From Actinomycetota bacterium (GTDB taxonomy: Bacteria; Actinomycetota; CADDZG01; WHSQ01): a stretch of DNA of 44,880 nt. Below the pieces are notes generated by a model. That model was not told where the DNA came from and made no database searches. It worked only from the letters and a program-made list of their open reading frames with translations. Made by a program: the position numbers and the translations under genes. The stretch is from assembly GCA_030447315.1 (NCBI GenBank), contig JAUJPD010000008.1, positions 81,932 to 126,811 of the forward strand, written 5' to 3'. Below, in pieces: positions 2,495 through 43,371 of the stretch (positions are counted from its first letter, which is position 1; every line of letters begins with the position of its first letter).

Positions 2495-2515
2495 CAGAAG
2501 CGCATCTTTCGGTTG

Positions 2516-5617: not shown

Positions 5618-5669
5618 CCTGTGCCCGCTAGATAGGCCCCTCAAGAGACTGCCCCAACCAAGGATCCGA

Positions 5670-6614
5670 TCATTCGTCCAGGAAGGTCGCCGACCGGCGG
5701 CGGCGGCGGTCGATCTGGACCTCGAATACATCAGGGCGGCTGTAATGACCGCTGGGATCGAAATTCTGCCGCTCACGCCGCACCAGTTGAAGATCTATCT
5801 CCGCCATCACCAAGCCCTCGCGGTTCTCTACAGGCTCTACCACCCAGCTACCGTCCGGAGCCGCGATCGCAGAGCCGCCGTTGTAGTAGACGTCGCTCTC
5901 CTGCTCCTCGAGCACGTCCCGTAGCGGGAAGTCCGCGGGAACGTCTTCGAGAGAGAGCAAGCCGCAAGCCGCCAAGGAATAGACCCGGCCCTCGAGCGCG
6001 ATGAAGCGTGTTATGTCGCGCGTCAACCGCAGCGACCCCGGCCAGACGCTGATGTGCAGATCCTCGCCGGCGGAGTAGAGAGCGTGGCGTGCCTGGGGCA
6101 TCCAGTTCTCCCAGCAGTTGAGGCCACCGACGTTCGTATCGCCGAGCTGGTGCACGCGTAACCCGTGGCCATCACCGTGGCCCCACACCAAGCGCTCCTC
6201 ATAGGTCGGAACGAGCTTGCGATGACGACTCACGATGCCGTGCGTGGGATCTATGGCAACCAGCGTGCAGAAGACGGTGCCCCGCGCCGTACCGCTCCCC
6301 CGCTCGGTGATGCCGAGATAGGTGAAGACACCGAGGTCGCGAACCGCGTCGACGATCTCGGCCAACTCTGGCCCGGCGAGCTCGACGGCTGCCTCCAGAT
6401 AGTGGGCGTAGGCGGCTTTCTGGAGATCGTCGTTGAAGCGCGCCCCGTTAGTTCGCTCGACCCAGAAGGGATACCCGGACAAGAAGGTCTCGGGAAACGC
6501 CAGCAGGTCAACCTCTTCGGCCGCGGCTTCCTCGAGAAAGCTGACGACTTTCTTCGTCGTCGCAGCAGCGTCGAGCCATACCGGGTGAGCTTGTGCGGCC
6601 GCGATCTTGATCAT
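5670..6614 (-). CDS. Nitrilase / carbon-nitrogen hydrolase
   Basis: 314 residues, intact. The catalytic triad of the nitrilase superfamily is visible: Glu42 in AFPETFLSGYPFW, Lys133 in RHRKLVPTYEERLVWG, and Cys167 in GGLNCWENWMP. The LVPTYEERLVWG and NCWENW strings are specific to the true nitrilase branch (nitrile to carboxylic acid plus ammonia, also cyanide hydratase-like enzymes) rather than amidases. The protein is cytoplasmic. It sits in a minus-strand train between the DM13 gene and the phosphatase-like gene. Its stop (FLDE, TGA) overlaps a downstream ATG. The natural substrate cannot be told from sequence. Confidence 0.9.
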   Translation of the reverse strand: MIKIAAAQAHPVWLDAAATTKKVVSFLEEAAAEEVDLLAFPETFLSGYPFWVERTNGARFNDDLQKAAYAHYLEAAVELAGPELAEIVDAVRDLGVFTYLGITERGSGTARGTVFCTLVAIDPTHGIVSRHRKLVPTYEERLVWGHGDGHGLRVHQLGDTNVGGLNCWENWMPQARHALYSAGEDLHISVWPGSLRLTRDITRFIALEGRVYSLAACGLLSLEDVPADFPLRDVLEEQESDVYYNGGSAIAAPDGSWVVEPVENREGLVMAEIDLQLVRRERQNFDPSGHYSRPDVFEVQIDRRRRRSATFLDE

Positions 6615-6751
6615 CGGACCAGGGTAGACCGACCGCCCGCCATTGGTGGCCGCCGGCGTGTCGCACTCGCGCTCAGTGCCGTCCTGACGGTGTCACCGAC
6701 GGTGATGCTCAGGTCTGCAGGGATATAGGCGTGATCCAACATGTCGACCGG

Positions 6752-7618
6752 TCAGCTGGTCGGGCTCAAAGTTGCACCTGCGTAAGCGATATGCAGCGGC
6801 TCGCACCAGATCACGACCGACCGCCACTCCGACAGATCGATCGAGTCCGGGATCTCATAGTTGATCGAGCCGGTCGTGACCGGCATCATCGATACCTCTT
6901 CGTAGCGAGCTTTCGTGAATTCCTCCGTCGTCTTGGGGTCTGGCAACACGCTGAGATCGACCTCGAGGTCGACGTTGGGCGACACGAAGAAGTCCTCGAG
7001 ACGAAGCATCATCGAGCCGTCCTTCAGCTTGTAGATGGACATGAGGCCGTTGCCGCGCCGGTCCATGTCGTAGATCTCGCCGCTCGCGATCACCCGCCCC
7101 TGCTTCATCTCCTTGATGAGAGGCTCAACGAGGGGGACGTCCACCTGCTGTTCGACGACGATCTCCCACTCCTCGTCGGCCTCCACCTCGAGAACGATCT
7201 CTCCGGTATCCACCGAGAATCCCGTGCCTTCACGAGGACACGTGGAGTCGGCGAGAGGTTGCGCCAAGGTCTCGCCCGCGGGCGTCCGCGCCTGCGCCAG
7301 CAGGTGGCCGGACTCACACGTCCAGACCGCCCGCCACTGCAGCGCGAAGTCATCGATGGTGAAGGCAGCGGTGGTGGTGGGGCCGGTCCCAGAGAAAGTC
7401 TTCACCGGCGCCCACCATGGAAAGGACCGGAGAGACGCGGACGCGGTGCTGTCATCCACCGTCGTGGCATCGCGATCGATCGGACCGGCGGAGACGAGCC
7501 TGGAGGGAGGGGGAAACGCGTCGCGCAGGCCTGAGAAGTTGGCGCTGTAGGCGGCGCTCACCGCCAGCAAGAGAACCATGAACGTCCCCACCGCGCTCTG
7601 AAGCGATGACCGTTTCAC
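6752..7618 (-). CDS. Membrane-anchored DM13 domain protein
   Basis: 288 residues from the GTG at 7618, which overlaps the permease stop by GTGA. The N-terminal signal or anchor is QSAVGTFMVLLLAVSAAYSA. The C-terminal about 110 residues fit the DM13 domain (GEIYDMDRRGNG, MLRLEDFFVSPNVDLEVDLS, then SVVIWCEPLHIAYAGATL with the conserved lone Cys). DM13 is a predicted extracytoplasmic electron-transfer domain. Coupling to a UPF0718-type permease suggests the two act together at the membrane; that partnership is inference. Confidence 0.8.
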   Translation of the reverse strand: MKRSSLQSAVGTFMVLLLAVSAAYSANFSGLRDAFPPPSRLVSAGPIDRDATTVDDSTASASLRSFPWWAPVKTFSGTGPTTTAAFTIDDFALQWRAVWTCESGHLLAQARTPAGETLAQPLADSTCPREGTGFSVDTGEIVLEVEADEEWEIVVEQQVDVPLVEPLIKEMKQGRVIASGEIYDMDRRGNGLMSIYKLKDGSMMLRLEDFFVSPNVDLEVDLSVLPDPKTTEEFTKARYEEVSMMPVTTGSINYEIPDSIDLSEWRSVVIWCEPLHIAYAGATLSPTS

Positions 7619-8736
7619 AGGAAGTTCACGATCAAGCCGGCCAGAGCCGCGAGCACGAAGGTGCCACCCAGCAGCATCAGTGGGATCCTCCAGCCCAGAT
7701 CTCCCCTCAGCAACGTGAACGTGACCAGCCCCGACGACGGAGCGGCGAGAAGCAGCGCGGTCGCCGGTCCGGCCCCCAGCCCCAAGGCCATCACGCCGAG
7801 CACGAGGGGGATCTCGAACAACGTAGGTAGTTGAAGCAACGCGCCGAGGAGAGCGGCGGCGATCACGATGGCGATCCCGGTCGCGCCGAAGCGAGACAGC
7901 TCTTGAGGCTGAACGAATAGCAGCACGGCTCCGACCAGGAAGCCCGCCAGGAACATGGCGGGGACGAGCCGCAAGGACACCGCGCTGGTTTGGGTCCACC
8001 AGGCTCGGAATGCATCACGGATCGCCGCCGGCCACGTGTCGCCCGACCTCACGGGCAGGGCCGGCGGGCGCAGGGGCATGTGCTGGGCGGTGCGCACCAG
8101 CTCGCGCGCCCCTCGTCCCTGGGCAATCGAGGGAACGAGGAAGAAGATCGCAAGGATCCCGAATACCACCCGCGCCAAAGCCATCTCTAAGGGGAACAGG
8201 AGGAAGATCGCCAGGATTCCCACCGGGTTGAACAACGCGGACCCGAGGACCATCCCGAGCGTGGTCTCGAGGCTGGCGCCGGATCGGTAAAAACCCACCG
8301 ACACTGGGGCGGAACACGCGCTGCACATGAACAGCGGCAGTCCCAGACTGCCCCCCACTCCGGCCCCCAAACGGCCGCCCTTCGCGAGAAGGTTCGTGAG
8401 CCTCGCCTCGGGCACCAAAGCAGCGCTCGCCGCGCCCCCAAGCAGCACGGCGAAGAACATCCCGATCGCGTTCGCGTCCCACAGGTTGAGTCCGAAAGCG
8501 ATCCACCTGAGCGGCCGCGGGAACGAGGCCGGGTCCACCAAGAACGAGAACGTCGAGCGGTCACGGGCGCTGGTGGGCTCCCCCAGGTTGGGGATCTTCT
8601 GGACAACCGCGGGCAACCGGGTCTGAGTGAGGAAGAACACCAACAGGGCGACGAAGATCAAGACCCCGATCACCGTTCTCTTGGTCAACCACGGTGCGGG
8701 CACGGACTGCACCTGTGGAAACGCTGGTTCAGACAT
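7615..8736 (-). CDS. UPF0718-type permease, copy 3 (CSACSAP variant)
   Basis: 373 residues starting at the ATG of MSEPAFPQVQSV. The open frame extends further upstream, but this ATG has an ACGGAG ribosome site 5 bases away. There are many membrane helices. The conserved cysteine motif is LPLFMCSACSAPVSVGFYRS, followed by SALFNPVGILAIFLL, a related but distinct arrangement from the CECGS of copies 1 and 2. A second half repeats the fold (LLQLPTLFEIPLVLGVMALG). The gene lies directly downstream of the PadR gene and is coupled to the DM13 gene. The substrate is unknown. Confidence 0.82.
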   Translation of the reverse strand: MSEPAFPQVQSVPAPWLTKRTVIGVLIFVALLVFFLTQTRLPAVVQKIPNLGEPTSARDRSTFSFLVDPASFPRPLRWIAFGLNLWDANAIGMFFAVLLGGAASAALVPEARLTNLLAKGGRLGAGVGGSLGLPLFMCSACSAPVSVGFYRSGASLETTLGMVLGSALFNPVGILAIFLLFPLEMALARVVFGILAIFFLVPSIAQGRGARELVRTAQHMPLRPPALPVRSGDTWPAAIRDAFRAWWTQTSAVSLRLVPAMFLAGFLVGAVLLFVQPQELSRFGATGIAIVIAAALLGALLQLPTLFEIPLVLGVMALGLGAGPATALLLAAPSSGLVTFTLLRGDLGWRIPLMLLGGTFVLAALAGLIVNFL

Positions 8737-8774
8737 CTCCGTCTTATAACCCGGGTGGTGAAGCTTCGGTACTT

Positions 8775-9149
8775 CTACCCAGTGTTTGCGTCTTTCTTGG
8801 TCAGTGCGTCGTAGCGCTCCAGATACGAGGCGATGATGCGGGAGCTCTCTCGCAGCGTGCCTGCCCATGCGTGCAGCCAGTCGCGGCCCTCGTCGGTGAG
8901 CTCGTAGGTGCGGCGGGCAGGTCCGAGATCGGACGTCTGCCACACCGACCTCATGAGACCCTCTTGCTCCATCGCCCGGAGCGCTCGGTAGAGGCCACCT
9001 GGATCCGCGGTCTTCAGACCCATCTCTCGCAGACGCTCGAGCAGGTCGTAACCGTGAGCCGACTCCTCGGCCACGAGCAGGAACAGGCTGGCTCGCAGGA
9101 AGTTCTTCGGCAGTCCGCCGGTCGGCTCCTCACGGTCTCTTGTAGCCAT
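8775..9149 (-). CDS. PadR family transcriptional regulator
   Basis: 124 residues from the ATG at 9149. The PadR winged-helix pattern is clear: FLLVAEESAHGYDLLERLRE, then PGGLYRALRAMEQEGLMRS, then RRTYELTDEGRDWLHAW, and a C-terminal helix (ESSRIIASYLERYDAL) for dimer formation. PadR proteins are usually ligand-responsive repressors of neighbouring genes. This one is 38 bases ahead of the permease copy 3 gene and just behind a metal-tail winged-helix protein, so it may control the permease/DM13 operon. The effector is unknown. Confidence 0.9.
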   Translation of the reverse strand: MATRDREEPTGGLPKNFLRASLFLLVAEESAHGYDLLERLREMGLKTADPGGLYRALRAMEQEGLMRSVWQTSDLGPARRTYELTDEGRDWLHAWAGTLRESSRIIASYLERYDALTKKDANTG

Positions 9150-9610: not shown

Positions 9611-10396
9611 CTAGCCCGTCGCCAAGAGGGGCTCTGTCGCCAGGACCTTGTCGACCAGGTCCGCGATCGCCCTGACCGACGGCGCGGACGGGGCGTGATC
9701 GATGGGAGCCGCTCCGGCCCGTTCGGCCTCGGCGAGCATCGGGTCGAAGGGCACCTGCGCGAACAGATCCAGGCCGTTGCTCTCGCAGAAACCCTCGATC
9801 GCAGCGGCGTCGTTCTCGTCGCGCACCTTGTTGGCAACCACTGTCACGCGAGGGATCCCGAGCTGCTTGCCCATGACGCAGTAACGGCGGGCGGTCTCGA
9901 GCGACTTGAAGTAAGGCTCTGCGATCACCAGCATCACGTCGACCGCCTCGGTAGTGGCCCGGCTGAGGTGCTCCGGCGATGCCTCGTTGTCAACCACGAC
10001 GACGCGCTCGGCGTCGGGAGCTTCGTGCAGAAGGCCACGAACCGTGGCGTGAGAGGAGCACATTCAGCCGGTGCCCGCCCCGGTCGGCGATCCCAACAGC
10101 AGCAGACGCACGCGATCGGGACAATCGATGCCGAACTTGGCGTCGACCTCCTCTACCGGCCGCGACAACGAGACGACCACCTCCCCGTTGACCCTCTTGT
10201 GGTCCATGAGTCCGTGCGGGAGCGGAACGATCGACTCGAACGTCTCCCGGGTGAGCCCCAGGGTCAGAGCCAGGTTGGGATTGGGGTCAGCGTCGATGGC
10301 AAGGACGGGATGGCCGGCGCGTCCGACGAGCCGGGCGAAGGTTCCCGACACGGTGGTCTTACCCGATCCGCCCTTCCCGGAGATGGCTACTTTCAC
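9611..10396 (-). CDS. CooC-type nickel-chaperone ATPase A with in-frame TGA (predicted selenocysteine, UxC)
   Basis: 262 codons from the GTG at 10396 to the TAG at 9611. The N-terminus is the deviant Walker A of MinD/CooC ATPases (AISGKGGSGKTT, residues 4-15), followed by LAIDADPNPNLALTLGL. Codon 111 is TGA (10064-10066), and the same frame continues MCSSHATVRGLL, VVVDNEASPEHLSRAT, ANKVRDENDAAAIEGF and FDPMLAEAERAGAAPIDH, all ordinary CooC features. In CooC the residues here are CxC, the dimer-interface Ni/Zn site. The TGA replaces the first Cys and Cys113 remains. A hairpin follows (10034-10048). An ATG lies right after the TGA, so a split gene is the alternative. I favour selenocysteine because two paralogues show the same substitution. 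Confidence 0.82.
10034..10048 (-). promoter_or_regulatory. Putative bacterial SECIS hairpin for CooC A
   Basis: On the coding strand GCCACGGTTCGTGGC forms a perfect 6-base-pair stem with a GTT loop (or 5 pairs with a GGTTC loop). It begins 16 nt after the in-frame TGA, and the first loop G is about 21-22 nt from it. Bacterial SECIS elements are short stem-loops just inside the coding region with a G at the start of the apical loop, and this fits. The hairpin also encodes the conserved ATVRG, so part of the symmetry could be coding coincidence. Confidence 0.6.
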
Positions 10397-11949: not shown

Positions 11950-13026
11950 TCAGCAGATCCGAGGCAGCGGATCTCCGATCAACATGTCCATGATCCGGGT
12001 GCCCCCGAAGGCGGTCTTCACTAAGACCATCCCCTGCGGTTCGTCCGCGACCTCTCCAATGACAGCCGCGTGCTCTCCCAGAGGCAGCTCCTGTAGCGCC
12101 GCGAGTGCCCCGTCGGCGACGGCGGGATCCACGATCGCCAACAACTTGCCCTCGTTGGCCACCGTCATCACGTCGATGCCGAGGATCTCGCTGGCCCCTT
12201 CCACCGCCGGGCTGACCGGGACCGCTTCCTCTTGCAGCACGATGCCGACGTCCGCGTCCCGGGCGATCTCGTTGAGCACCGTCGCGACGCCACCCCTGGT
12301 CGGGTCCCGCATCACGCGCAAGCCGGCCCCCGCGGCACCCAGCAGCGCATCCACCAGAGGCCACAGGGCGGCGGTGTCCGAGCGGATGTCAGCGTCCAGC
12401 TCGAGCTCGCCTCGGGCAAGCATGATCGCGGTGCCGTGGTCGCCAACGGTCCCCGAGCACAGGATCCGGTCACCGGGGCGGATCTGCGTCACGCCGAGCT
12501 CCGCGCGCTGGTCCCTGACGCCGATGCCGCTGGTCACGATGTACATACCGTCGGCCTTCGTCCTCTCCACCACCTTGGTGTCGCCGGCTACGACCGTCAC
12601 ACCGGCCGCGGCCGCTGCCGTGGCCATCGCCTGCACCTCCGCCCGCAACACATCTCCATCGAGGCCCTCTTCCAGGACGAAGGCCGCGGTCAGAGCAAGG
12701 GGCCGGGCGCCGATCATCGCAAGGTCGTTGACGGTCCCGTTGACCGCGAGCTCTCCTATGGAGCCGCCGGGAAACACCAGTGGCTTGACCACGAAGCCGT
12801 CGGTCGTGAACGCAAGCCTCGCTCCGTCGACATCCAGGGCCGCGGCATCGGCAAGCTCCGCCAGTTGAGGGTTGGCGAAGGCGGGCTCGAAAAGCCCGCT
12901 CACGAGCGTGTGAGTGGCCTTGCCTCCGGCTCCGTGAGCCATCGTGATGCGCTCGTCACGCCAGCGCGGCCGGAGCTTCCGCTGACGCTCGATACGCGCC
13001 AGAACCTCTTGCTCGAGGCCCGCCAC
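11950..13026 (-). CDS. hypE: HypE, carbamoyl-dehydrating hydrogenase maturation protein
   Basis: 358 residues, intact. It belongs to the AIR synthase/PurM superfamily, with the ITMAHGAGGKATHTLVSGLF opening and the TTDGFVVKPLVFPGGSIGEL segment. It ends in PRIC, whose C-terminal Cys358 receives the carbamoyl group from HypF and is dehydrated to a thiocyanate. The cyano ligand is then passed to iron on HypC/HypD. It sits in the order hypC, hypC-like, hypD, hypE on the minus strand; HypD ends one base before it starts. It should not be confused with SelD of the same superfamily: the PRIC end decides. Confidence 0.97.
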   Translation of the reverse strand: MAGLEQEVLARIERQRKLRPRWRDERITMAHGAGGKATHTLVSGLFEPAFANPQLAELADAAALDVDGARLAFTTDGFVVKPLVFPGGSIGELAVNGTVNDLAMIGARPLALTAAFVLEEGLDGDVLRAEVQAMATAAAAAGVTVVAGDTKVVERTKADGMYIVTSGIGVRDQRAELGVTQIRPGDRILCSGTVGDHGTAIMLARGELELDADIRSDTAALWPLVDALLGAAGAGLRVMRDPTRGGVATVLNEIARDADVGIVLQEEAVPVSPAVEGASEILGIDVMTVANEGKLLAIVDPAVADGALAALQELPLGEHAAVIGEVADEPQGMVLVKTAFGGTRIMDMLIGDPLPRIC

Positions 13027-14148
13027 CTACGCTCCGGCGCGCTCTTTGGAGCGAGCGAAGCGTCCGAAGTTGTAATAGGCGGCGCAGGCCCCCTCGGAAG
13101 ACACCATGCAGGTCCCGATCGGCGTCTCGGGGGTGCACGCGGTCCCGAACACCTTGCACTCCCACGGCTTGATCACACCTTTTAGGACCTCTCCGCACTG
13201 ACAAGCCTTGGGGTCCGCCACGCGGACGCCCGGCATCTCGAAGCGCAGCTCGGCATCCCAGTCCGCATAGGCATCCGAGAGCCGAAGAGCGCTCTGAGAG
13301 ATGAACCCCAGCCCGCGCCATTCGAAGTAGGGCCGCAGCTCGAACACCTCGGCCAGCACCTCGAGCGCCTTGAGGTTGCCTTCCCACGGCACCACCCGCG
13401 AGTACTGGTTCTCGACCTCGGACCGCCCCTCGGCTAGCTGCTTCATGATCATGAAGATCGACTGCAAGAGATCCAGCGGTTCGAACCCAGCGGTGACCAC
13501 CGGTTGTCCGTGATCCTTCGGGATGAACTCGTAGGGCCGGCAGCCGACGACGGTCGAGACATGTCCGGGACCGATGAATCCGTCGAGGCGCAGATCCGGC
13601 GACTCGAGCAAAGCGCGCAGCGGCGGGACGATCGTCACGTGGTTGCAGATGACCGAGAAGTTCTTGATCCTTTCCGCCTTGGCCCGCATCAAGGTCAGCG
13701 CCGTCGACGGCGCGGTCGTCTCGAAGCCGATCGCAAAGAAGACCACCTCGCGGTCGGGGTTGTTGCGAGCGATCTTCAGAGCATCGAGAGGCGAGTAGAC
13801 GAACCTGACGTCGGCCCCCTGTGCCTTCGCATCGAGGAGGCTGCCGTCGCCGCCCGGGACGCGCATCATGTCTCCGAAGCACGTGAAGATCACGCCCGGG
13901 CGCTTCGCCACGGCGATCCCGTCGTCGACGCGGCCCATCGGTATGACGCAGACGGGGCAACCCGGGCCGTGGACCAGCTCGACGGTGTCGGGCAGATGGT
14001 CCTCGATCCCGTGCTTGTAGATCGTGTGCGTGTGGCCCCCGCACACCTCCATGATCTTGTAGTGGCGGCCGGGCTCGGCGAGAGCCGCTATCTGGGCGGC
14101 GAGCCCGCGCGCCAGGTCGGCGTTGCGGAACTCGTCGACGAACCTCAT
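13027..14148 (-). CDS. hypD: HypD, Fe(CN)2CO assembly scaffold
   Basis: 373 residues, intact. Conserved cysteines are Cys36 in MEVCGGHTHTIYKHG and Cys64/Cys67 in VHGPGCPVCVIPMGR. The CFGDMMRVPGGDGSL motif follows, and the C-terminal [4Fe-4S] region is ACQCGEVLKGVIKPWECKVF with later CTPETPIGTCMVSSEGAC. HypD with HypC binds the iron atom and builds its CO and cyanide ligands. The start overlaps the stop of the second HypC-like gene (ATGA). No internal TGA is present, although the protein is Cys-rich. Confidence 0.97.
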   Translation of the reverse strand: MRFVDEFRNADLARGLAAQIAALAEPGRHYKIMEVCGGHTHTIYKHGIEDHLPDTVELVHGPGCPVCVIPMGRVDDGIAVAKRPGVIFTCFGDMMRVPGGDGSLLDAKAQGADVRFVYSPLDALKIARNNPDREVVFFAIGFETTAPSTALTLMRAKAERIKNFSVICNHVTIVPPLRALLESPDLRLDGFIGPGHVSTVVGCRPYEFIPKDHGQPVVTAGFEPLDLLQSIFMIMKQLAEGRSEVENQYSRVVPWEGNLKALEVLAEVFELRPYFEWRGLGFISQSALRLSDAYADWDAELRFEMPGVRVADPKACQCGEVLKGVIKPWECKVFGTACTPETPIGTCMVSSEGACAAYYNFGRFARSKERAGA

Positions 14149-14402
14149 GCGCTCACATCCAGTCGCGCGATCGCTACCCCGCCGTGGATCAAGAGGCGCT
14201 GCCCGGCTTCCACCGGAGCCACCAGCTCGATGCCGACGGTTCCGCGCTGGCCGTGGTCGTCCTGGCAGATCGCATCGGGGTCACCAGCTTCGATCACTGT
14301 CACGGGCACGGCCACGTCGCCGCAGGTGAGACACCCATCGATGACCGCGCAGACGGCGCCGTACGACTGAGGGTCCACCATCGGAAGCCGAGGACCGGTC
14401 AT
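14145..14402 (-). CDS. HypC-like protein 2 (DGCLTCGD variant)
   Basis: 85 residues from the ATG at 14402, overlapping the HypC stop by ATGA and itself overlapping the HypD start. It has the HypC-family barrel end (GTVGIELVAPVEAGQRLLIH GGVAIARL). It lacks the N-terminal MC of HypC and instead has an internal DGCLTCGDVAVPV after residue 22. Such second HypC-type proteins occur in actinobacterial hydrogenase clusters. It may act as a chaperone for one of the two large subunits. The N-terminal Cys that HypC uses to bind iron is missing, so its chemistry must differ. Confidence 0.8.
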   Translation of the reverse strand: MTGPRLPMVDPQSYGAVCAVIDGCLTCGDVAVPVTVIEAGDPDAICQDDHGQRGTVGIELVAPVEAGQRLLIHGGVAIARLDVSA

Positions 14403-14671
14403 GTGATGTCGGTGGTCTTCAGTTGCTCGAGCTCGTCCTCGTATTCCTCGCCGAGGCCCTGAAGGAAGTCCATCGTGGAACGGGCCTCGTTCTCGTCGAT
14501 CTTCGACATGGCGAAACCGACATGGATCAACACCCAGTCCCCGGTCTCCACACCTTCCGGCGCGATCAGACCGAACTGCACGTCGCGCCGTACGCCGCCG
14601 ACCTCGACCTTGGCGATGTTGAGCTGTGGGTCGACGATCTCGACGATTTGGCCCGGAATCCCAAGGCACAT
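14399..14671 (-). CDS. hypC: HypC/HupF chaperone
   Basis: 90 residues. The start is the ATG of MCLGIPGQIVEIVD, the invariant HypC beginning; Cys2 binds iron in the HypC-HypD complex. Nine extra in-frame residues upstream are not used. The barrel core is VGGVRRDVQFGLIAPEGVET followed by GDWVLIHVGFAMSKIDENEA. HypC carries the Fe(CN)2CO unit from HypD to the hydrogenase large subunit. A GAAGGGG ribosome site precedes the ATG. It heads the hypC, hypC-like, hypD, hypE, SIS run. Confidence 0.95.
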   Translation of the reverse strand: MCLGIPGQIVEIVDPQLNIAKVEVGGVRRDVQFGLIAPEGVETGDWVLIHVGFAMSKIDENEARSTMDFLQGLGEEYEDELEQLKTTDIT

Positions 14672-14733
14672 AGCGAACCCCTTCTCTCGAAGGTGCAACT
14701 ATATGTCGGCAACACCCATAGGAGGAGACGCGC

Positions 14734-15243
14734 TCATGGCCCTGATGCGGCCGGTGGGTCGTCGGGAGGATCGTCGGGGATCTGCGTGAAGACCTGCGGA
14801 TACATCGAGCTGATCCCCCCGGCCAGCCGGACCAGGTAGTCGCTGTCGCCCCCAAGCCGGCGCGCTTTCTTAGCCGCCCAGCACGCCCCGGCCGCGTCAC
14901 CGGAACGAGCGAGCATCTCGGCTGCGGCGGCCAGCACCTTCCAACTCTCGACAGCCGCCGCCGTGGCCCTGCAAGCCTCGCTCGCCAACCGCCGGATGGC
15001 GGGCACCGAGACGGCAGGAGGATCCTTCTCCGCATGGCCCAGCACCAGCGTCACGGTGGCATATGTGAGTCCGGCTCCGGCATAGGTGCGCTCGAACGAG
15101 GTCAGTCGAGAGCCGGCGGCCACAAGTGCCTTGGCCTCTTCTCGCAGCCCGGCGGCGGCGGCGACCGCCTCTTCCACCTGGCCCACACCCAGAAGCTCTT
15201 GGGCTGCCCTGACTTCGTCATAGACAGCTTTCGCCCGGCGCAT
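14734..15243 (-). CDS. Alanine-rich helical protein, unknown function
   Basis: 169 residues, all predicted helix by composition (AQELLGVGQVEEAVAAAAGL, then VESWKVLAAAAEMLARSGDA). The pattern is loosely TPR-like, with a Pro-rich end (PDDPPDDPPAA). No family is recognised. It is the first minus-strand gene downstream of a shared divergent region (15244-15335) and is followed 62 bases later by hypC, so it may be the first gene of the hyp operon. The frame is clean and long, and the position supports a real gene. Confidence 0.65.
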   Translation of the reverse strand: MRRAKAVYDEVRAAQELLGVGQVEEAVAAAAGLREEAKALVAAGSRLTSFERTYAGAGLTYATVTLVLGHAEKDPPAVSVPAIRRLASEACRATAAAVESWKVLAAAAEMLARSGDAAGACWAAKKARRLGGDSDYLVRLAGGISSMYPQVFTQIPDDPPDDPPAASGP

Positions 15244-16110: not shown

Positions 16111-17002
16111 GCGACGTTCGCGGTCACGACACGCTCTCGCCTGAAGAGCGCCCGCTTCCTCCCGCCGATGTTGCGCGCCTCGTGGCGCATCCGAAAGCAG
16201 CTGGCCGAGACACCAGGTTGTCTCCGGTTCGCCAACATCGTGATGTCTCATCGAGAGGTGTGGACGCTTACCGTGTGGCGCACACGGCAAGAGATGCTGG
16301 ACTTCATGCGCTCGGGCGCCCACGAGGACATCATGTGGGATTTCTCCAGATGGCTCGAGTCGTTCTGGTTGATGCGGTGGCGTCCCTCGACGGACGAGAC
16401 CGGCTCATGGAGGGGGTTGCAACTGGCGCAGCGCAGAGCCCTTCCCGCTCCCCCGCCGGACGAACCCCGGAACAAGAGGCGGCGCTCGATGCGGCTCTGG
16501 AGTCGATCCCCCGTCTCTGCGCGCGGCCTCGGCCCCCAGCGGAGCAGCCTCCTTGGAGTACGCACCGTCCCAACGCCGCTGGCGAGGCATGGTCGCCGGG
16601 GCGGTCGGCGCGACGATCCGGGTCGAGGTCGACAACGTCCGAAGCTCCCGGCCGCCTGGCGAGAGATGGCTCGCTTGCGGAGGCGATTGCTCGACGAGAG
16701 GATGGCGCTTGCGCTGTGCGTTCGGGTTATCGGAGCCGCGTGCCTGCTACCTGCTGGCGCTCTTTCGGGACACGGAGGCGTGGAGGAGTTCATCGGATCG
16801 CAAGCGACCGATGGCCTCGGGCAGCGGTGGCCGCAGGGTCTGTGGACCATGCGCTGGGACGCGGACAACGAGTTCGGACATTGGGATGGCCTCAGGCTGC
16901 GCAAAGTGAAGCTCGGCACCAAGGTGAAGTACCGCAACGAAGGTCGGGCCGCCGACGTGGTCACCGACGGGGCCGCCGATGCATCCGGCGAAGACCGACT
17001 AG
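16111..17002 (+). CDS. Tandem ABM/spheroidene-monooxygenase-like protein, multiply frameshifted
   Basis: No start codon is visible; homology-like sequence begins near 16111 (ATFAVTTRSRLKSARFLPPM). One domain reads SHREVWTLTVWRTRQEMLDF, then MRSGAHEDIM and ends SWRGLQL. A second, partly in other frames, reads LLALFRDTEAW and EFIGSQATDGLGQRWPQGLW and ends HWDGLRL. Both look like the heme-degrading/ABM-type fold of CrtA-like proteins, so the gene is an internal duplication. Frame changes occur near 16430-16450, 16540-16560 and 16650-16790. The 3' end is uncertain: a TAG at 17000 would end it just before the convergent CooC B gene. It may be a pseudogene. Confidence 0.45.
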
Positions 17003-17003
17003 C

Positions 17004-17760
17004 TCAAGCCGGGACGGCCATCTCCTTCTCGACCGCGTCCAAGAGCCGGTCCACCGCCTTCACCGCTTCCGAGCCGGCGTCCGCATCGATCACGGCCTGT
17101 CCCCGGCGGTCAGCATTGCGCGCGACCTCGTCGTAAGGAACGATCGCCAGCAAGGGAAGCCCCGTCCCGAGCGAAGCTCTCGACGATCTCTCGATCCTGA
17201 TCGTCTTCGACCTTGCTGCCCACCCCGTAGATGCGTGGGATGCCGAGGTCGGTGGCGAGCTCGAAGCGTCCGGCGCCGGTCTCCAGCGCTTTCCTGTAAG
17301 GCTCGAGCACGACGAGGAGAACGTCTACGTGGCGAAGCGTTCCGCCGGAGCGGGATAGATGCTCGAGCCCCGCCTCCATGTCGGCGATCGTTAGTTGGTG
17401 GTCCTCCGAGAGGAGGTCACCCAACATGCCACGCACGGTGGCATGAGAGCCGCAAGCTCAGCCACCGGCGGCTTGGTCCACCCTTGCGCCGATCACCAAG
17501 GTGACGCCGTCGGGGGCCTCGATGCCGTACCCGGTGATCAGCCGGTCGGCCGACATCGGTTCTCGACCCTGTATCGACTTCGGCAATGCCTCGGCCGCAT
17601 CCAGAACGTCGAAACTGAGACCGAGACTGGCGCCGAGGTTCGGATTCGAGTCGCAGTCGATCGCGAGTGTTCGATACCCGCGTCGCGCCGCGAGACGAGC
17701 GAGCGTGGCAGAGATGGTCGTCTTTCCGGTGCCACCCTTGCCCGATATAGCTACCTTCAT
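17004..17760 (-). CDS. CooC-type nickel-chaperone ATPase B with in-frame TGA (predicted selenocysteine, UxC)
   Basis: The ATG at 17760 overlaps the biotin-ligase-like stop (ATGA). Residues 1-15 are MKVAISGKGGTGKTT, and LAIDCDSNPNLGASLGL follows. Codon 101 is TGA (17458-17460). The same frame continues ACGSHATVRGMLGDLL and ADMEAGLEHLSRSG, so the site reads U-A-C where CooC has C-x-C. There is no start codon just after the TGA, which makes a split gene unlikely. A separate one-base indel near 17165-17175 shifts the C-terminus, which resumes LLAIVPYDEVARNADRRGQA and ends VEKEMAVPA at the TGA at 17004. A hairpin in the same position as in CooC A lies at 17428-17442. Confidence 0.8.
17428..17442 (-). 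promoter_or_regulatory. Putative bacterial SECIS hairpin for CooC B
   Basis: On the coding strand GCCACCGTGCGTGGC has a 5-base-pair stem (GCCAC/GTGGC) and a CGTGC loop. It begins 16 nt after the TGA, the same distance as in CooC A, with the loop G about 22 nt away. It covers the same ATVRG codons as in CooC A, so coding conservation contributes, yet synonymous changes keep the stem (GTT to GTG falls in the loop). Confidence 0.55.
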
Positions 17761-34863: not shown

Positions 34864-36749
34864 CTATTCCAACGTGCACGAACACGAGTTCACCTCACGC
34901 ACGATGACACCGCGGGCCGGTGTCGAGGTGGGTCGTGCACGGCATGCAGGGGTCGAACGACCGATCGTCCTGAGAACGTCGATGCCCTTGAGCTCGTCGT
35001 CCTTCGTGGTCTCTAGAAGCGGCGTCCCGATGATCGCTTCCTCGTAGGCCCCGGGATTGCCGAACGGGTCACGAGGAGAAGCGTTCCAGGTCGACGGCGT
35101 GTTGATCTGGTAGTTCACGATCCGGCCCTTGTCCATCGTCATGTGATGGCTGAGGTAACCGCGGCCCGCCTCCGGTGAAGCCGCACGACGCGATCTCACC
35201 CTGGGGGATCGAGAACTTCGACCACGCCTTCGTCTCGCCCTTGCGCCACAGGTCGAACGCCTGGAGAAGCATGTTCATGGTGATCGCCGCGGTGAAGGCG
35301 ACGCCGTAGGCGCGGCCCCGGTTGCGCTCGAAGGCATTGACCTGTAGAACCTTCCACTCGAGCTCCATCTCGGGCAGCTCGAACTTGGGCATCAACATCT
35401 TGAGCCCGTCTCCGGTGGCCTGGATGAAATCGTTCTGCTGCATCTTCTGAGCCATCGCGGTGGTCCCATGCGCCCGTAGACGCCGGTCTCCATCGTCTCG
35501 CGGTCCCAGCGGGGGGCGCAGTCCCACGAGTACTTCTCTTTGAAGTTACGACCCTCGGGCCGGGGAATCGTGGACTTGTTCCATGCGTGGTACGGAGACA
35601 GCGGGTATCCGGCGGGGTCCGTCTTGAACTTCTGTCCGCTCTCTCCGTCGGTCCCTCCTCGTAGAACGAGTGGGAGACGAACTCCTCGATGCCGCAGTTG
35701 ATCTCGTGGAGGTTGGTCGTCACCAACTCGCCGTTGCGGATGACGCCGGGCATCGACCAGCGCTGGTCCCCCCACTCGGCCATGTTCTCGTACTTCGCGT
35801 CGAAGGACCAGGGATCGTCCCAGATGCCGGTCTGGATCAGGTTGTTGGGTCGAGCACCAACCAGCGCATAATCCGGGTTGTGCTCGAGGAAGAAGTCCAG
35901 CACGTCGTCCCACCACAGCGCGATGCGCTTGGAGTAGTCGAAGAACTTGATCAGGCGCGTGTAGTACTCGTTGAAGCTTGTCGTCGACAGCGTGGTCATC
36001 ACGCCACCCGGCACCAGCGTCGACGGGTGCGGGTACTTGCCGAACATGTAGTTGCACATCTCGCACGTCCGAGGCGGGTGAACTCGATCGCCTCGAGGTA
36101 GATGGCCCCGGTCAGGGGGTCCATCGCATCCATGATGTCTTTGATGGTCTTGTAGCCGTGTACGTGAGCATGAGGCGCAGAGGTGTTCTCGGCCTTGCGG
36201 ACGATCTCGGGGTTCGTGACCGAAACGAGCGCGGTCGAGTAGTCGGGTCCGGCCAACAGCCCGAGGTGGATCGGGTGGTCGTAGAGCATCTCGGCTCCTG
36301 CACCGAGGTTGCGAACGGTCACGCCCATCGGAGGCGTCTGCACCCCGAAGGCCATGTCCAGTGCCTGGGAGGAGACCGAGGAGTGAACACCGCCGCAGAC
36401 ACCGCAGGCCCGTGAGGAGATGTCGATCGCGTCTCTCGGGTCCCGACCCTGCAGGATGATCTCGTAACCCCGGAACAACATCGCCATCGAGTGAGCCTCG
36501 ACCGCCGCGGCGCTCGACGTCGAGCCCGATGTGAACGGCAAGAGCGCCCGCAACGCGCGTGATCGGGTCGATCATCCAGTCGCGCACCTTGCCCTCGGTG
36601 GCGATCGCTCCCCCGCCGATGGGACGCTGGATAGTCTTGGTGTAGGCCTTCGTGGCTGCGCCCGTCAGCGAGTACGGGTCCGCGATGCCCTCTCTGAGTC
36701 GCGCCTTCCCGTTCTCGTCGAACTCGAGCGGGAGGTTCTTAAAACACAT
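34864..36749 (-). CDS. [NiFe]-hydrogenase large subunit B (frameshifted)
   Basis: The ATG at 36749 gives MCFKNLPLEFDENGKARLRE, then DWMIDPITRVAG. Corrected frames add GYEIILQGRDPRDAIDISSR, the N-terminal nickel motif ACGVCGGVHSSVSSQALDMA, CNYMFGKYPHPSTLVPGGV, TTSFNEYYTRLIKFFDYSKR and VNYQINTPSTWNASPRDPFG, and near the end RSFDPCMPCTTHLDTG with the two last nickel Cys and His. After the His a tail VIVREVNSCSCTLE remains to be cleaved. Both nickel Cys pairs are TGC/TGT; there is no TGA here. Frame changes lie near 36530-36610, 36070, 35650, 35460, 35190 and two within 34915-34965. Confidence 0.83.
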
Positions 36750-36795
36750 CCGGGTTCACCTTTCCTCTTCTTTCATGCGACGGGTGAGCAGCTGC

Positions 36796-38028
36796 TCAGT
36801 GCCCGATCTTGGAGTGCTGGTAAGCGCGGTAGGCCTTGTGGAGGAGCTTCTGAGCACCCTTCGGCTGCGTGTTGTGCGCCCAACCCGATGGGGCCTCTTT
36901 GCCTTCCCAGCGGACGCTCCGGTTCTTGTCCGCCATTGTGGCGGTGCGCATCCTGCGGATGAACCCGCCCGTTACGCGACGTGTGTCGGGACGAGATGAA
37001 CGAACCGGGAGGCGCCGAATAGGCGAGAACTTGTCGGGGAAGCCCGGCATCGTGCACCCGATGCAGATGCCCCCCATCTGCATGCAGCCACCCGTCCCGT
37101 TGAGGATGCCTCGCTCGGCGATGTTGCACTGGACCACGGGCCCCCAGCAACCGAGCTCGACCAAGCACTCCTTGTCCCCGTAGGACTCGGCGAAGACGCC
37201 TTCTTCGTAATAACCGGCGCTTGGGACAGTGGCGATGGACGGTCTCGCCGAACAGCCACGCGGGGCGACCGAGCTCGTCGAATTCCGGAAGGGGCGCCAA
37301 GCCCTGCAGGAACAGCAATACGGCGGCCGCCGTCTCCATGTAGTTGTCACCGATAGGCGAGCACCCAGGGACGTTCACGACGGGGACACCGAAGGCCGAC
37401 CGATAGTCCTTGCCCAGGTAGTCCATGACCGCCATCGACCCGGTCGGGTTGCCCTCGGCGGCGGGGATGCCACCCCAGGTGGCACAGGTTCCGATGGCGA
37501 TGACGGCCGCGGCCTTGGGGGCCAGACGACGCATCCACTCGGCCGACGTGATGGTGCGCCCGGTCTCGGGATCCTCGCCGAGCCCCATGAAGTAACCGTC
37601 CCCGGAACGGGTCTCGTCGAACATCGAGCCCTCCCAGGTGACAACGAAGGGCGCGTCCAACTCGCCGCGTTCCGCCATGAAGAGGTTGTGCACCCACTCC
37701 GGACCGGACTCGACCGAGGTCACGGTGTGGATGAGCTCGAGCTTCGGAAGGCCCGGGACGATGCCTGCGAGCAGGTGCTCGACCCGCGGGTTGGTGGCGC
37801 CCGTGACTGCGATCGTGCAGCCGTCGCAGGACCCGCCGACCATCCAGATCAGGTAGATCTTCTCGAGGGGGCCGAGGCGCATCGCGTTGTTCGCCTGCGG
37901 GAGCTCGACGACCTTGCTGCGCATGCCGACGGCTGCGAAGGGATCTCTCCCGTCCATGTCCTCCGGCCGGTTGCCGTGAGAGGTGTGGGCTTCAGCGCCT
38001 GCGAGGTAGAGGTTTTAGCCTCGGCCAT
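36796..38028 (-). CDS. [NiFe]-hydrogenase small subunit B (frameshifted)
   Basis: The ATG at 38028 (site GGGAGGACGC) gives MAEAKTSTSQALKPTPLTAT, and a shift near 37965 leads to MDGRDPFAAVGMRSKVVELP. The cluster ligands follow: GGSCDGCTIAVTGATN, AIGTCATWGGIPAAEG, VVNVPGCSPIGDN, TVHRHCPSAGYYEEG, ELGCWGPVVQCNIAERG and GGCMQMGGICIGCTMPGFPD. It ends AYRAYQHSKIGH. Frame changes are near 37215 and 37010. It is about as similar to subunit A as close paralogues are, with the same lack of an obvious Tat signal. The large subunit starts 46 bases downstream. Confidence 0.85.
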
Positions 38029-39581: not shown

Positions 39582-40346
39582 ATGCGGATCGCGGTGGTGG
39601 GCAAGGGCGGCGCCGGCAAGTCGGTCGTCGCCGGCACCATGGCGCGCCTGTTGGCCCGCGGCGGTGACAAGGTCCTGGCCCTCGACTCGGACCCGATCCC
39701 CGGCCTGGCCATCAGCCTCGGGCTCGGCCCCCTCGACACTCCCATGCTGCTGGACGCGGTCGAGAAAGACGACAACGGACGGTGGCGTTTGAAGAAGGGC
39801 ATCGGGGCCGCTCGAGCGGTCCAGCGTTACTCGCTGGTGGGACCCGACGGCGTCCGGCTGCTTCAGTTCGGAAAGACCACCGCATCGGGGCTGAAGGACT
39901 TCATGGGCTCGGTGAACGGCTTCTACCAAGTGGTCCATCGGTTGGCGAGAGATGACTCCCTGTCGGGTTGGACGATCGTCGGAGACCTTCCCGCGGGCCC
40001 CCGTCAGACCGCCTTCGACTGGGTCCCCTACGCCGACAAGCTCGTACTGGTGGTGGAGCCAACGTGGCAGTCGATCCTCACCGCGCGCCGGATCGCTCGC
40101 ATCTCCCGACAACGCTCCGGGGTCGAAGTGGTCGCTTTCGGCAACAAGCTTCGCGAGGACGGAGACACCGATCTCATCGAAGAGCGGCTGGGCGAGCGTC
40201 TTGGAGGTTCCCTGCCCTTCGACCCGCTGGTGGCCGAGGCAGATGCCCACGGGAAGGCGCTCATCGATCACGCGCCCGATTCCCCGGCGGTGCATGCGAT
40301 CGAGCATCTCATCGACGCAATCTCCCGGCGTAAGGTGAGCGCATGA
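39582..40346 (+). CDS. CooC-type ATPase C, lacking the CxC motif
   Basis: 254 residues, intact. The deviant Walker A is VVGKGGAGKSVVAGTMARLL, and LALDSDPIPGLAISLGLGPL follows. The central region reads DFMGSVNGFYQVVHRLARDD where relatives have the metal motif; no CxC or TGA is present. Later features are ADKLVLVVEPTWQSILTARR and GNKLREDGDTDLIEERLGER, and it ends RRKVSA. It is coupled (ATGA) to CooC D, and the two may form a heterodimer in which only D carries the metal ligands. That is inference. Confidence 0.85.
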   Translation: MRIAVVGKGGAGKSVVAGTMARLLARGGDKVLALDSDPIPGLAISLGLGPLDTPMLLDAVEKDDNGRWRLKKGIGAARAVQRYSLVGPDGVRLLQFGKTTASGLKDFMGSVNGFYQVVHRLARDDSLSGWTIVGDLPAGPRQTAFDWVPYADKLVLVVEPTWQSILTARRIARISRQRSGVEVVAFGNKLREDGDTDLIEERLGERLGGSLPFDPLVAEADAHGKALIDHAPDSPAVHAIEHLIDAISRRKVSA

Positions 40347-41086
40347 AGATCGCGGTTGCGGGCAAGGGCGGTGTCGGCAAGACCACCATCTCGGGCACCC
40401 TGGCTCGCCATCTTGCCCGCACGGGCATGCCCGTGATCGCTCTGGACTGCGACACGAACCCGATGCTCGGGGTCTCGCTGGGGGTCGGGCCGGAGGAAAC
40501 CGATCGTCTCGGAACCGTCCGCCAAGGTCTAGACACCGGCGAGGTAGAGCACCAACCAACCACTCAAGGCATCGTGGAGACGTTCGGAACCGATGCTCCC
40601 GACGGCGTGCGCCTGGTGGTGGTGTCGCGCATTGACAACATCGACCCCGGCTGACCCTGATGTGGGGTTTCGCCCGAGCAGTTGCTCGGTGAGCTAGAGC
40701 AAGAAGGGGCAGCGGTCATCTGCGACCTGGAGGCCGGGGTGGGATCGCTGTTGCGCATGAGCGACGGGCACGTCGACGTCACGCTGGCGATCGTCGAGCC
40801 GACGGTGAAGTCGATCGAAGCCGCTACTCGCGCCGCGGCCATCGCCTCGGGACACGGAAAGGTGATCGTCGTCGCGAACCGGGTCAGAGACGACTCCGAC
40901 ACCGAGTTGATCCGTTCGGCCTTCCCCGACCACGACATGCACGTGATCCCCTATGACGCCGCGATCAGGCGGGCCGACCGGGAGGGAACCGCTCCGATCG
41001 ACTTCGGCGACAGCAGCGCCGGTCTGGCCGCGATCGCACAGCTCGCCCACAGGATCTCTCGATCGGACCCGGTGGAGGCTGCCTAG
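40343..41086 (+). CDS. CooC-type ATPase D with two in-frame TGA codons (predicted U-P-U-C)
   Basis: 248 codons in one uninterrupted frame apart from TGA at codons 104 (40652-40654) and 106 (40658-40660). The N-terminus is MKIAVAGKGGVGKTTISGTL, with LALDCDTNPMLGVSLGVGPE-type sequence (here IALDCDTNPM). The critical region is NIDPG-TGA-P-TGA-CGVSPEQLLGEL, where cysteine homologues would be expected to read CPCC. ICDLEAGVGSLLRMSDG, VIVVANRVRDDSDTELI and IPYDAAIRRADREGTAPIDF follow. No base needs to be inserted or deleted. A perfect hairpin follows at 40674-40689. It ends overlapping the HypF stop by 4 bases. Confidence 0.82.
40674..40689 (+). promoter_or_regulatory. Putative bacterial SECIS hairpin for CooC D
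   Basis: CCGAGCAGTTGCTCGG forms a perfect 6-base-pair stem with an AGTT loop (or 7 pairs with a GT loop). It begins 14 nt after the second TGA, and the loop G is 21 nt away, essentially the same distance as in CooC A. The encoded residues here (PEQLLG) differ from those under the other two hairpins, so the structure is not explained by protein similarity. Confidence 0.65.
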
Positions 41087-43371
41087 ATCAGCTTCGCGCT
41101 CGCCACGACGGCTTGTCCGAGACTGACCCCGCCGTCGTTGCACGGGACCTGGCGGTGGAGCAACACCTCGAAGCCGCGGTCGCGCAATGCGCTGCGGACG
41201 CGTTCCAGGAGGAAGACGTTCTGCCAGGTCCCCCCCGACAGCGCCACGACCTCGATACCCGTAGCAGCCCGCGCGCCGAGGGCTGTTTCCACCAGGCCCG
41301 CCGCGAGGCCGTTGTGGAACCCCGCGGCCGCCTCGGGGACCGAACGGCCGGCGGCGACATCCTCGGCCAGAGCTCTTATCAAAGAGACCCCATCGAGACG
41401 GCCGTCGGAGAACGGGAACGGATACACGAGGCCGCTCGAGGGATCGGCAACGTTCTCTAACTCGGCGGCGGCCTGTCCCTCGTAACTGGAGCGGGTCCGG
41501 AGTCCACACACCGCGGCCGCGGCGTCGAAGAGCCGCCCCGCGCTGGTTGCCTCGGGTGAGTTCAACCCCCGGCGAGCCATCTTCAGGATGGGCGCCCACT
41601 TGCTCCCTGTTTCTCTCACGACCTCTAGCGCCAGCTGGTACGCGCCGTCGCCGAAGCCGGCCTCCAGATAGACCGCCGCCATGCGCCACGGCTCTTTGAT
41701 TGCGGCCTCGCCGCCCGGCAGCGACACGGGGGCCAGATGTGCAAAGCGTTCGTAGCCGGTCAGGTCGGCAACGAGGATCTCGCACCCCCACAGGGTTCCG
41801 TCGTCTCCCATGCCCGTCCCATCGAGGGCGAGGCCGATGACGCGATCGGACCGGTTGTTGTCCGCGAGGCAGGAGGCTATGTGCGCATGGTGGTGTTGAA
41901 CCCCGATCTTGGTCGGAGCCTCAGACGACAGCGCCCATCTCGTGGCGAGATAGCCGGGATGCAGGTCGTACGCGACCACATCGACCTCGTCGATGTCGAA
42001 GAGGCGCTTCAGGTGAGCGACGCCGTCGGTGAACGCCGCCATAGCTGCGTAGTTCTGCAGATCGCCGATGTGGTGGGAAACGACGGCCAGGTCTTCGACC
42101 CCCAAACAGAACGTGTGCTTCAGCTCGGGTCCTGTCGCGAGAACCGGACGAGAGAAAGTCGTCGGAACGCTGATCGGTTGGGGCACGTAGCCACGCGAGC
42201 GGCGGATCAGATACTCCTGCGAGCCCACCGCTCTGACCACCGAGTCATCACAGCGGGTCCGGATCGGGCGGTCGTGGATCAAGAACGCATCCGCCACCTG
42301 TTGCAACCGCTCGTAGGCGTCGTCGTCCTGGAACGCCACCGGCTCATCCACAAGGTTGCCCGAGGTCATGACCAGCGGACGCCGCACCGCGGCCAGCAGC
42401 AAGTGATGCAGAGGCGTGTACGGCAGCATCAATCCCAGGTATGGGTTGCCCGGCGCTACCTCTTCGGCCACCGCGGTTGAAGGCCGTCGGCGCGACAGCA
42501 CGATGGGGGCGCGTGGAGACGAAAGCAGCGCCTCCTCCTGGCTGGTGATCACGGCCAGCTCGCGTGCTGCCGCCAGGTCGGCGACCATCAGGGCCAGCGG
42601 CTTCGCCTCCCGGTGCTTGCGCGCCCGCAGACGTTTCACCGCGTTGGCGTTCGTGGCGTCGCAGGCCAGGTGGAAGCCTCCCAACCCTTTGATGGCGACG
42701 ATCGCACCTTGGATCAAGAGCTCGGCCGCTCCTTCGAGGGCCTCGGTCGCGACGGCCTCTTCTTCGATGGCGCCGCCCTCGGCAGTCAGCAGCCGCAACC
42801 TCGGCCCGCACTCGGGACACGCGATCGGCTGCGCATGGAAGCGCCTGCTCCCTTGGTCCGAGTATTCAGCCGCGCAGGCGCGACACATCTCGAACGATGC
42901 CATCGTCGTGTTGACACGGTCGTAGGGCGAAGCGGCAACGATCGTGAAACGAGGTCCGCAGTCGGTGCAGTTCGTAAAGGCATAGCGATGTCGTCTGTCA
43001 CGTACGTCTTCGACCTCGGCGGCACACGCCCGGCAAGTGGCCAGATCCGGCGGTATCGAAACCCGAACCCGTCCTTCGCTTCGGCTCGAACGGATCTCGA
43101 ACGTCGTCGCGTCGGCGATGTCTATGTCTTCCGTCTGAAAACTGGTGATCGACGCCAGGGGCGGAGGGTCTGCGCGCAGCGCAGCCTCGAAACGAGCGAC
43201 CGCGGCTTCATCACCCTCGGCCTCGATCGCCACGCCTCGAGGGTCGTTGACGACGTAGCCGGTCACGCCCATCTCGATCGCGCGCCCGTAGACGAAGGGA
43301 CGGAACCCGACACCTTGCACCACACCTTGGATATGGAAGCGCCTGCGGATGCGTCGATGCATGACAGTCAT
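41083..43371 (-). CDS. hypF: HypF carbamoyltransferase
   Basis: 762 residues, intact. Domains in order: acylphosphatase (IQGVVQGVGFRPFVYGRA, residues about 10-95); two zinc fingers (CRACAAEVEDV to NCTDCG, and CRACAAEYSDQ to ACPECG); a YrdC-like domain (RLRARKHREAKPLALMVADL, APIVLSRR); and the Kae1-like carbamoyl transfer domain (QHHHAHIASCLADN, GLALDGTGMGDDGTLWGCE, VVALSGGTWQNVFLLERV, NDGGVSLGQA). It makes the carbamoyl group for HypE from carbamoyl phosphate and ATP. The usual WGGE motif is WGCE here. It is convergent with CooC D and the stops overlap. Confidence 0.97.
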   Translation of the reverse strand: MTVMHRRIRRRFHIQGVVQGVGFRPFVYGRAIEMGVTGYVVNDPRGVAIEAEGDEAAVARFEAALRADPPPLASITSFQTEDIDIADATTFEIRSSRSEGRVRVSIPPDLATCRACAAEVEDVRDRRHRYAFTNCTDCGPRFTIVAASPYDRVNTTMASFEMCRACAAEYSDQGSRRFHAQPIACPECGPRLRLLTAEGGAIEEEAVATEALEGAAELLIQGAIVAIKGLGGFHLACDATNANAVKRLRARKHREAKPLALMVADLAAARELAVITSQEEALLSSPRAPIVLSRRRPSTAVAEEVAPGNPYLGLMLPYTPLHHLLLAAVRRPLVMTSGNLVDEPVAFQDDDAYERLQQVADAFLIHDRPIRTRCDDSVVRAVGSQEYLIRRSRGYVPQPISVPTTFSRPVLATGPELKHTFCLGVEDLAVVSHHIGDLQNYAAMAAFTDGVAHLKRLFDIDEVDVVAYDLHPGYLATRWALSSEAPTKIGVQHHHAHIASCLADNNRSDRVIGLALDGTGMGDDGTLWGCEILVADLTGYERFAHLAPVSLPGGEAAIKEPWRMAAVYLEAGFGDGAYQLALEVVRETGSKWAPILKMARRGLNSPEATSAGRLFDAAAAVCGLRTRSSYEGQAAAELENVADPSSGLVYPFPFSDGRLDGVSLIRALAEDVAAGRSVPEAAAGFHNGLAAGLVETALGARAATGIEVVALSGGTWQNVFLLERVRSALRDRGFEVLLHRQVPCNDGGVSLGQAVVASAKLI

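Follow-up and report, generated by a model that had tools for sequence, protein, structure and literature searches.

Candidate bacterial SECIS elements behind in-frame TGA codons of CooC-like ATPase genes in an actinobacterial [NiFe]-hydrogenase gene cluster

Results

CooC-like genes with in-frame TGA codons

The stretch of DNA considered here (the window) comprises 44,880 nucleotides (nt) of an Actinomycetota bacterium (assembly GCA_030447315.1, contig JAUJPD010000008.1, positions 81,932 to 126,811). Among genes for a [NiFe] hydrogenase and its maturation, it contains genes for CooC-like ATPases, denoted A, B and D, whose reading frames are interrupted by TGA codons, each gene having a short hairpin downstream of its (last) TGA that resembles a selenocysteine insertion sequence (SECIS). 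With TGA read as selenocysteine (Sec, U), the three predicted ATPases are 250-260 amino acids (aa) in length. A paralogue C serves as an internal comparison. The features are as follows (bp, base pairs).

9611..10396, minus strand: CooC-like ATPase A, 261 aa, predicted Sec at residue 111 (U-M-C); open frame with TGA read as U, best Protein Data Bank match CooC 3kje
10064..10066, minus strand: in-frame TGA (predicted Sec codon) of A, kept in relatives at 67-70% protein identity
10034..10048, minus strand: SECIS-like hairpin of A, GCCACG-GTT-CGTGGC, 6 bp
17002..17760, minus strand: CooC-like ATPase B, predicted Sec at residue 101 (U-A-C); frame broken near 17.17 kb
17458..17460, minus strand: in-frame TGA (predicted Sec codon) of B
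17425..17445, minus strand: SECIS-like hairpin of B, 8 bp, loop CGTGC
40343..41086, plus strand: CooC-like ATPase D, 247 aa, two predicted Sec (U104-P-U106-C)
40652..40654, plus strand: first in-frame TGA of D, a position with Cys in several relatives
40658..40660, plus strand: second in-frame TGA of D, kept as Sec throughout the D-type Sec genes
40674..40689, plus strand: SECIS-like hairpin of D, CCGAGC-AGTT-GCTCGG, 6 bp
39582..40346, plus strand: CooC-like paralogue C, without CxC and without TGA

A frameshift breaks CooC-B near position 17170 (minus strand), and the large and small hydrogenase subunits (34870-37957, minus strand) are likewise frameshifted, reflecting either assembly indels or gene decay.

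The hairpin of A extends from +16 to +30 after the TGA, with the loop GTT at +22 to +24 and hence the loop G at +22. The loop G of B is also found at +22, that of D at +21, counted from the second TGA. One register (i+j=46) is common to A and B, and D has a separate one (i+j=43). A preliminary description of the window had placed hairpins at matching distance behind the TGA codons of the three genes and had pointed out that the codons under the D hairpin differ from those in A and B; the coordinates hold on the sequence, and the peptides encoded under the hairpins are P-E-Q-L-L-G in D versus H-A-T-V-R-G in A and B. Three details require correction. The B hairpin, given as 17428-17442, is real but constitutes the core of the 8-bp stem at 17425-17445; the stems, given as 5-7 bp, are indeed short and perfect but measure 6-8 bp (8 bp in B); and the term G-first loop is exact for A only, since in B and D the G comes second in the loop.

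Comparable hairpins (a perfect stem of at least 5 bp, a loop of 3-5 nt and a G as its first or second base at +21/+22) are found at 2.96% of random positions of the GC-rich window, and at 1.1% if at least 6 bp are required. These frequencies result in a chance of approximately 1e-6 to 3e-5 that all three genes carry such a hairpin, a figure that refers to a pattern picked after the fact. Single-sequence RNA folding recovers the hairpins of A, B and D with modest z values (-1.3 to -1.6) that are not informative alone, and Rfam gives no gathering-level match in the window. Proof of the hairpins rests on the comparison between genes, not on single-sequence folding.

Homologues and the exchange of selenocysteine and cysteine

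Homologue searches covered the order, the class, the phylum, a GTDB collection and two further groups, and resulted in a set of 164 CooC-like frames that includes C-type and distant forms of the CO dehydrogenase (CODH) type. The TGA position corresponds to the first cysteine of the CxC metal site of CooC (U-P-U-C in D) and aligns only with Cys in homologues. TGA is found at the same codon across several actinobacterial families, in unrelated assemblies as well as isolates, and it is kept by A-type orthologues from other genera within the family, which show 67-70% protein identity on each side of it. It is conceivable that the TGAs are ordinary stops in decayed or split genes, or sequencing errors, as there are frameshifts nearby in the assembly. 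The recurrence of the TGA at this position in isolates and unrelated assemblies alike, the sequence identity on either side, and its exclusive location at the CxC/CxCC cysteines in all three paralogues speak against such an origin, and because the TGA is conserved across genomes we regard this explanation as refuted, with hardly any residual probability.

The motifs of the D-type genes are U-P-U-C, C-P-U-C, C-L-U-C and C-P-C-C, with C-P-U-C being carried by two isolates, Pseudonocardia nigra DSM 104088 and P. kunmingensis DSM 45301. The A/B-type genes have U-x-C, C-x-C or U-T-G, the last of which lacks the second Cys. On a tree of 113 homologues, built without the motif columns, at least 11 changes between Sec and Cys are required, 7 of them forced by supported branches; the tree is a quick one and the figures are approximate. 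Among independent pairs, the hairpin goes with Sec in a median of about 6 of 7 and the reverse is almost never observed (sign test, median p 0.031, approximate).

We note that four loci (L060, L063, L071 and L073) encode CooC-like proteins that have Sec and lack the second Cys (GUTG, GUG), and that their host genomes also have Cys forms. A metagenome-assembled genome of the Gemmatimonadales (L079) has an A-type Sec CooC together with a tRNA-Sec in the assembly, due to either transfer or misbinning.

Hairpin pairing in Sec and Cys genes

All 12 distinct Sec sequences of the A/B register have stems of 6-9 bp, compared to 0-4 bp in the 64 distinct Cys sequences (His at the matching codon), none of which reaches 5 bp. 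Stems of 6-8 bp are found in all 16 distinct Sec sequences of the D register; of the 10 Cys sequences, 9 have 1-3 bp and one keeps at least 5 bp. The loss of pairing in Cys homologues, proposed as a check in the preliminary description, is thus complete for the A/B type and holds with one exception for the D type. The fraction of cells paired in register is 95.8% (Sec A/B) and 97.3% (Sec D) versus 41.7% (Cys A/B) and 58.6% (Cys D).

The same contrast is seen relative to random synonymous codons. The mean stem of Sec genes is 6.5 bp versus an expected 1.9 bp (A/B) and 7.3 bp versus an expected 3.4 bp (D), whereas Cys genes have no excess (1.25 versus 1.38 bp in A/B; 2.5 versus 2.7 bp in D). Arg in the 3' arm is encoded by CGT in all 12 Sec sequences but in 1 of 26 Cys sequences (Fisher p 5e-9; the sequences are related, hence this is no strict probability). 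All 16 D-type Sec genes use CAG-TTG-CTC/CTT, where TTG is an otherwise minor Leu codon; their close Cys relatives in the Pseudonocardiaceae (L129-L132) mostly have CAG-CTG-CTG.

Covariation, the second check proposed earlier, was also examined: three A/B pairs and two D pairs are altered on both sides with pairing kept. Within the Sec genes of the A/B type, pair 16-30 changes from G-C to U-G and pairs 17-29 and 18-28 change from C-G to U-A. The covariation score of 0.328 compares to 0.141 in shuffles, with 0 of 500 reaching it, and pairing drops to at most 49% when the partner is slid out of register. For the D type, pair 13-30 changes from C-G to G-C and pair 15-28 from C-G to U-G and U-A, with a score of 0.145 versus 0.088 (2 of 500 shuffles as high). 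RNAalifold, unprompted, gives the same helices as the A/B and D registers. The paired changes in A/B replace residues encoded by one arm or by both (A to V with G to D, G to S, A to S) and therefore do not represent synonymous drift.

These comparisons bear on the possibility that the hairpins are a by-product of coding, with the conserved peptides HATVRG and PEQLLG being self-complementary by chance in GC-rich codons. About 3% of window positions carry such a hairpin, the D peptide yields a mean stem of 3.4 bp under synonymous choice, and some single D genes reach p values of 0.10-0.13 only. The stem is nevertheless lacking in Cys homologues that encode identical peptides (HATVR; CPCCGLSPEQLLR in the same family, L129-L132), the codons CGT and TTG in Sec genes go against the general codon preference, and the altered amino acids of the A/B pairs are at odds with a coding origin. 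The Cys comparison refutes this explanation in large part, and we consider it very improbable.

Selenocysteine machinery and SECIS criteria

The genome to which the window belongs, a 2.46-Mb draft, contains a tRNA-Sec (81.8 bits) and SelB (327 bits) according to family searches, as well as a SelD with a UGA of its own and its own GGU-loop hairpin. The published criteria for bacterial SECIS (bSECIS) elements, as given in a 2026 review (PMC13188914), are an apical loop of 3-9 nt, an upper stem of 4-16 bp, a G in the first two loop positions that is often followed by G or U, a distance of 16-37 nt from UGA to loop, and a minimum free energy of -7.5 kcal/mol or lower. The stems and loops are 6 bp/3 nt (A), 8 bp/5 nt (B) and 6 bp/4 nt (D), all three loops (GTT, CGTGC, AGTT) contain G-U, the distance from UGA to loop is 21 nt (A), 20 nt (B) and 19 nt (D; 25 nt from the first UGA), and the energies of 45-nt stretches are -12.5, -17.7 and -15.9 kcal/mol, respectively.

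Established selenoprotein genes of relatives have similar elements, their loops likewise starting with G-U. Sec formate dehydrogenase genes of relatives have stems of 7-8 bp with a GTC triloop at +20, almost the element of A, and SelD genes, including that of the window's own genome, have stems of 7-8 bp with loops GTC or GGTCA at +33/+34. The hairpins described here share with the bSECIS consensus the loop of 3-5 nt, the stem of 6-8 bp, the G followed by U at the loop start and the spacing of 19-21 nt; they differ from it in that a single hairpin is associated with two UGAs one codon apart in D.

UGA might also be read by another route, that is, in a recoded genome or by general readthrough independent of a hairpin; the analysis turned up nothing in favour of this. 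Its alignment with Cys only, the presence of tRNA-Sec, SelB and SelD in the genome and the association of the hairpin with the TGA leave this route barely any probability. With UGA aligned to Cys and conserved across species, a host encoding the Sec machinery, compensatory changes in Sec genes and the hairpin absent from Cys homologues (exceptions L085 and f13, see below), the SECIS reading of the preliminary description is strongly supported: the hairpins are very probably bacterial SECIS elements and the TGAs selenocysteine codons. We infer that SelB, together with Sec-tRNA and GTP, would bind the G-U apical loop 20-23 nt downstream of the UGA in the CooC-like mRNA and that the complex would deliver selenocysteine at the UGA. 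Sec would thereby take the place of the first Cys in the metal-binding CxC motif of A and B, and in D one hairpin would serve two UGAs six nt apart (U-P-U-C).

Exceptions

Several observations weigh against this interpretation. A family of nine CooC genes (f13; loci L034-L039, L042, L044 and L047) has a conserved UGA in U-L-C without a hairpin in register. Its two candidate hairpins, a 6-bp stem at +16 and GCUC-GGU-GAGC (GGU loop) at +37, are both invariant, so that neither shows covariation; the latter is marginal relative to codon choice (p ~0.06). The family seems to use a different hairpin, an assignment that is less certain. Locus L085 (5422 onward, plus strand), a D-type Cys CooC, retains an AGTT hairpin of 6 bp in which one base pair is swapped. 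SelB and SelD were found in its genome, and tRNA-Sec was not detected at a convincing score; the hairpin may be a remnant of a recent change from Sec to Cys. Locus L073 (GUG) is out of the A/B register and has a 5-bp AGTT hairpin at +20. Furthermore, no tRNA-Sec was found at a convincing score in eight draft genomes with TGA (G007, G008, G344, G317, G152, G151, G392 and G397), approximately half of which have SelB (over cut-off in G007, G152 and G151, partial in G008). Finally, the covariation set is small and its members are related.

As a separate observation on f13, the intervening Arg codon takes nearly every possible form, and the neighbouring codons are nearly invariant.

Gene neighbourhood and putative function

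The genes surrounding the CooC-like ATPases encode hydrogenase maturation proteins, [NiFe] hydrogenase subunits and a TPR protein.

41083..43371, minus strand: HypF (hydrogenase maturation)
11950..15035, minus strand: AIR-synthase-like (HypE-like), HypD and HypC-domain maturation genes
34870..37957, minus strand: [NiFe] hydrogenase large and small subunits, frameshifted in the assembly; C-terminal motif DPCMPC has Cys, not Sec

The hydrogenase itself was considered as a selenoprotein and rejected, as the C-terminus of the large subunit (DPCMPC) has Cys. The Pseudonocardia copies are flanked by a NifU-domain gene and a [NiFe] large subunit. Elsewhere in the window (1481-8943, minus strand), three ArsP_1-type permease frames lie close together, and a gene with a DUF1980 C-terminal domain adjoins CooC-A.

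The best match among solved structures is Carboxydothermus CooC (3kje; E 4e-25 with A and 3e-18 with D), in which C-Y-C is aligned with U111-M-C113 of A. Cys112 and Cys114 of CooC form the metal-holding pair at the dimer interface (PMC6006190). A, B and D have the features of the CooC family, namely a MinD-type ATPase fold, a deviant Walker A motif and the interface CxC (here UxC or UxUC). Carboxydothermus hydrogenoformans CooC1 (3kje), the nickel ATPase for CO dehydrogenase, shares the deviant Walker A (GKGG.GKTT) and a CxC aligned with the Sec site. The window genes differ from it in having Sec at the first ligand, in residing in a hydrogenase cluster with no annotated CO dehydrogenase neighbour, and in comprising three Sec paralogues plus a fourth that lacks the motif. 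No CO dehydrogenase family and no linkage to cooS were found among the scanned window neighbours, which are hyp and [NiFe] hydrogenase genes; the proteins are therefore termed CooC-like instead of CooC.

HypB has no match in the window's genome and exceeds the cut-off in 3 of the 16 CooC-bearing genomes tested. It is undetected in most Sec-CooC genomes, although the window contains a [NiFe] hydrogenase along with further hyp genes. The group 1m hydrogenase cluster, as described, typically includes a gene for a CooC-type Ni-insertion ATPase (PMC9561532). This cluster resembles the window in being actinobacterial and in combining a CooC-type gene with a TPR protein; it differs in that selenocysteine goes unmentioned in its description.

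Taken as Sec-containing CooC-like (MinD/SIMIBI) ATPases of the [NiFe]-hydrogenase gene cluster, the products would hold nickel between two monomers by selenolate/thiolate ligands and pass it to the hydrogenase upon ATP turnover, replacing HypB. Judged by gene context and similarity, we consider it probable that they insert nickel for the [NiFe] hydrogenase, at a confidence clearly below that for the SECIS elements. The selenoproteins might instead have another role, such as redox sensing, handling of another metal or maturation of Ni-CODH, which would affect the functional assignment only. Two points favour such a role over nickel insertion for the hydrogenase: the UTG and GUG forms keep Sec without the second Cys, suggesting a chemistry other than a four-ligand nickel site, and the CooC of R. 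rubrum neither matures a [NiFe] hydrogenase nor is needed for that of R. rubrum itself (PMC6006190). The location among hyp and [NiFe] hydrogenase genes, the missing HypB match in the window's genome and the CooC-type Ni-insertion ATPase of the group 1m cluster (PMC9561532) argue in the opposite direction, and we regard another role as a possibility of appreciable weight but the less probable one.

Discussion

The 2026 inventory (PMC13188914), which covers 119 families of prokaryotic selenoproteins, yielded no CooC-like, MinD, P-loop, NifH or maturation entry when searched by term, and a literature search found no paper linking CooC with Sec. A CooC-like selenoprotein family is thus apparently unreported. 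A comparable entry of the inventory is a CobW-related selenoprotein (NF041053), likewise a metal-carrier NTPase predicted to use Sec, that belongs to a different fold family (G3E GTPase) and has the motif UxxC (PMC13188914). The elements are ordinary bSECIS elements, and the proteins form a selenocysteine variant within an already known type of ATPase. In combination, we lean, by a small degree, towards a new selenoprotein family with one or two Sec in the nickel site that replaces HypB in the [NiFe] maturation of Actinomycetota, with Sec and Cys repeatedly interchanging and one SECIS decoding two UGAs.

As standard gene callers stop at UGA, CooC-like maturases of this type are probably annotated as truncated fragments. 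The prokaryotic selenoproteome would gain an apparently unlisted family outside the usual thioredoxin-like redox enzymes, namely a metal-inserting ATPase whose metal ligand itself would be selenocysteine. The natural series of Sec and Cys forms, with cultivated members, would allow for direct testing of the benefit that Sec brings to a nickel site. The findings suggest that hydrogenase maturation can depend on selenium in some Actinomycetota.
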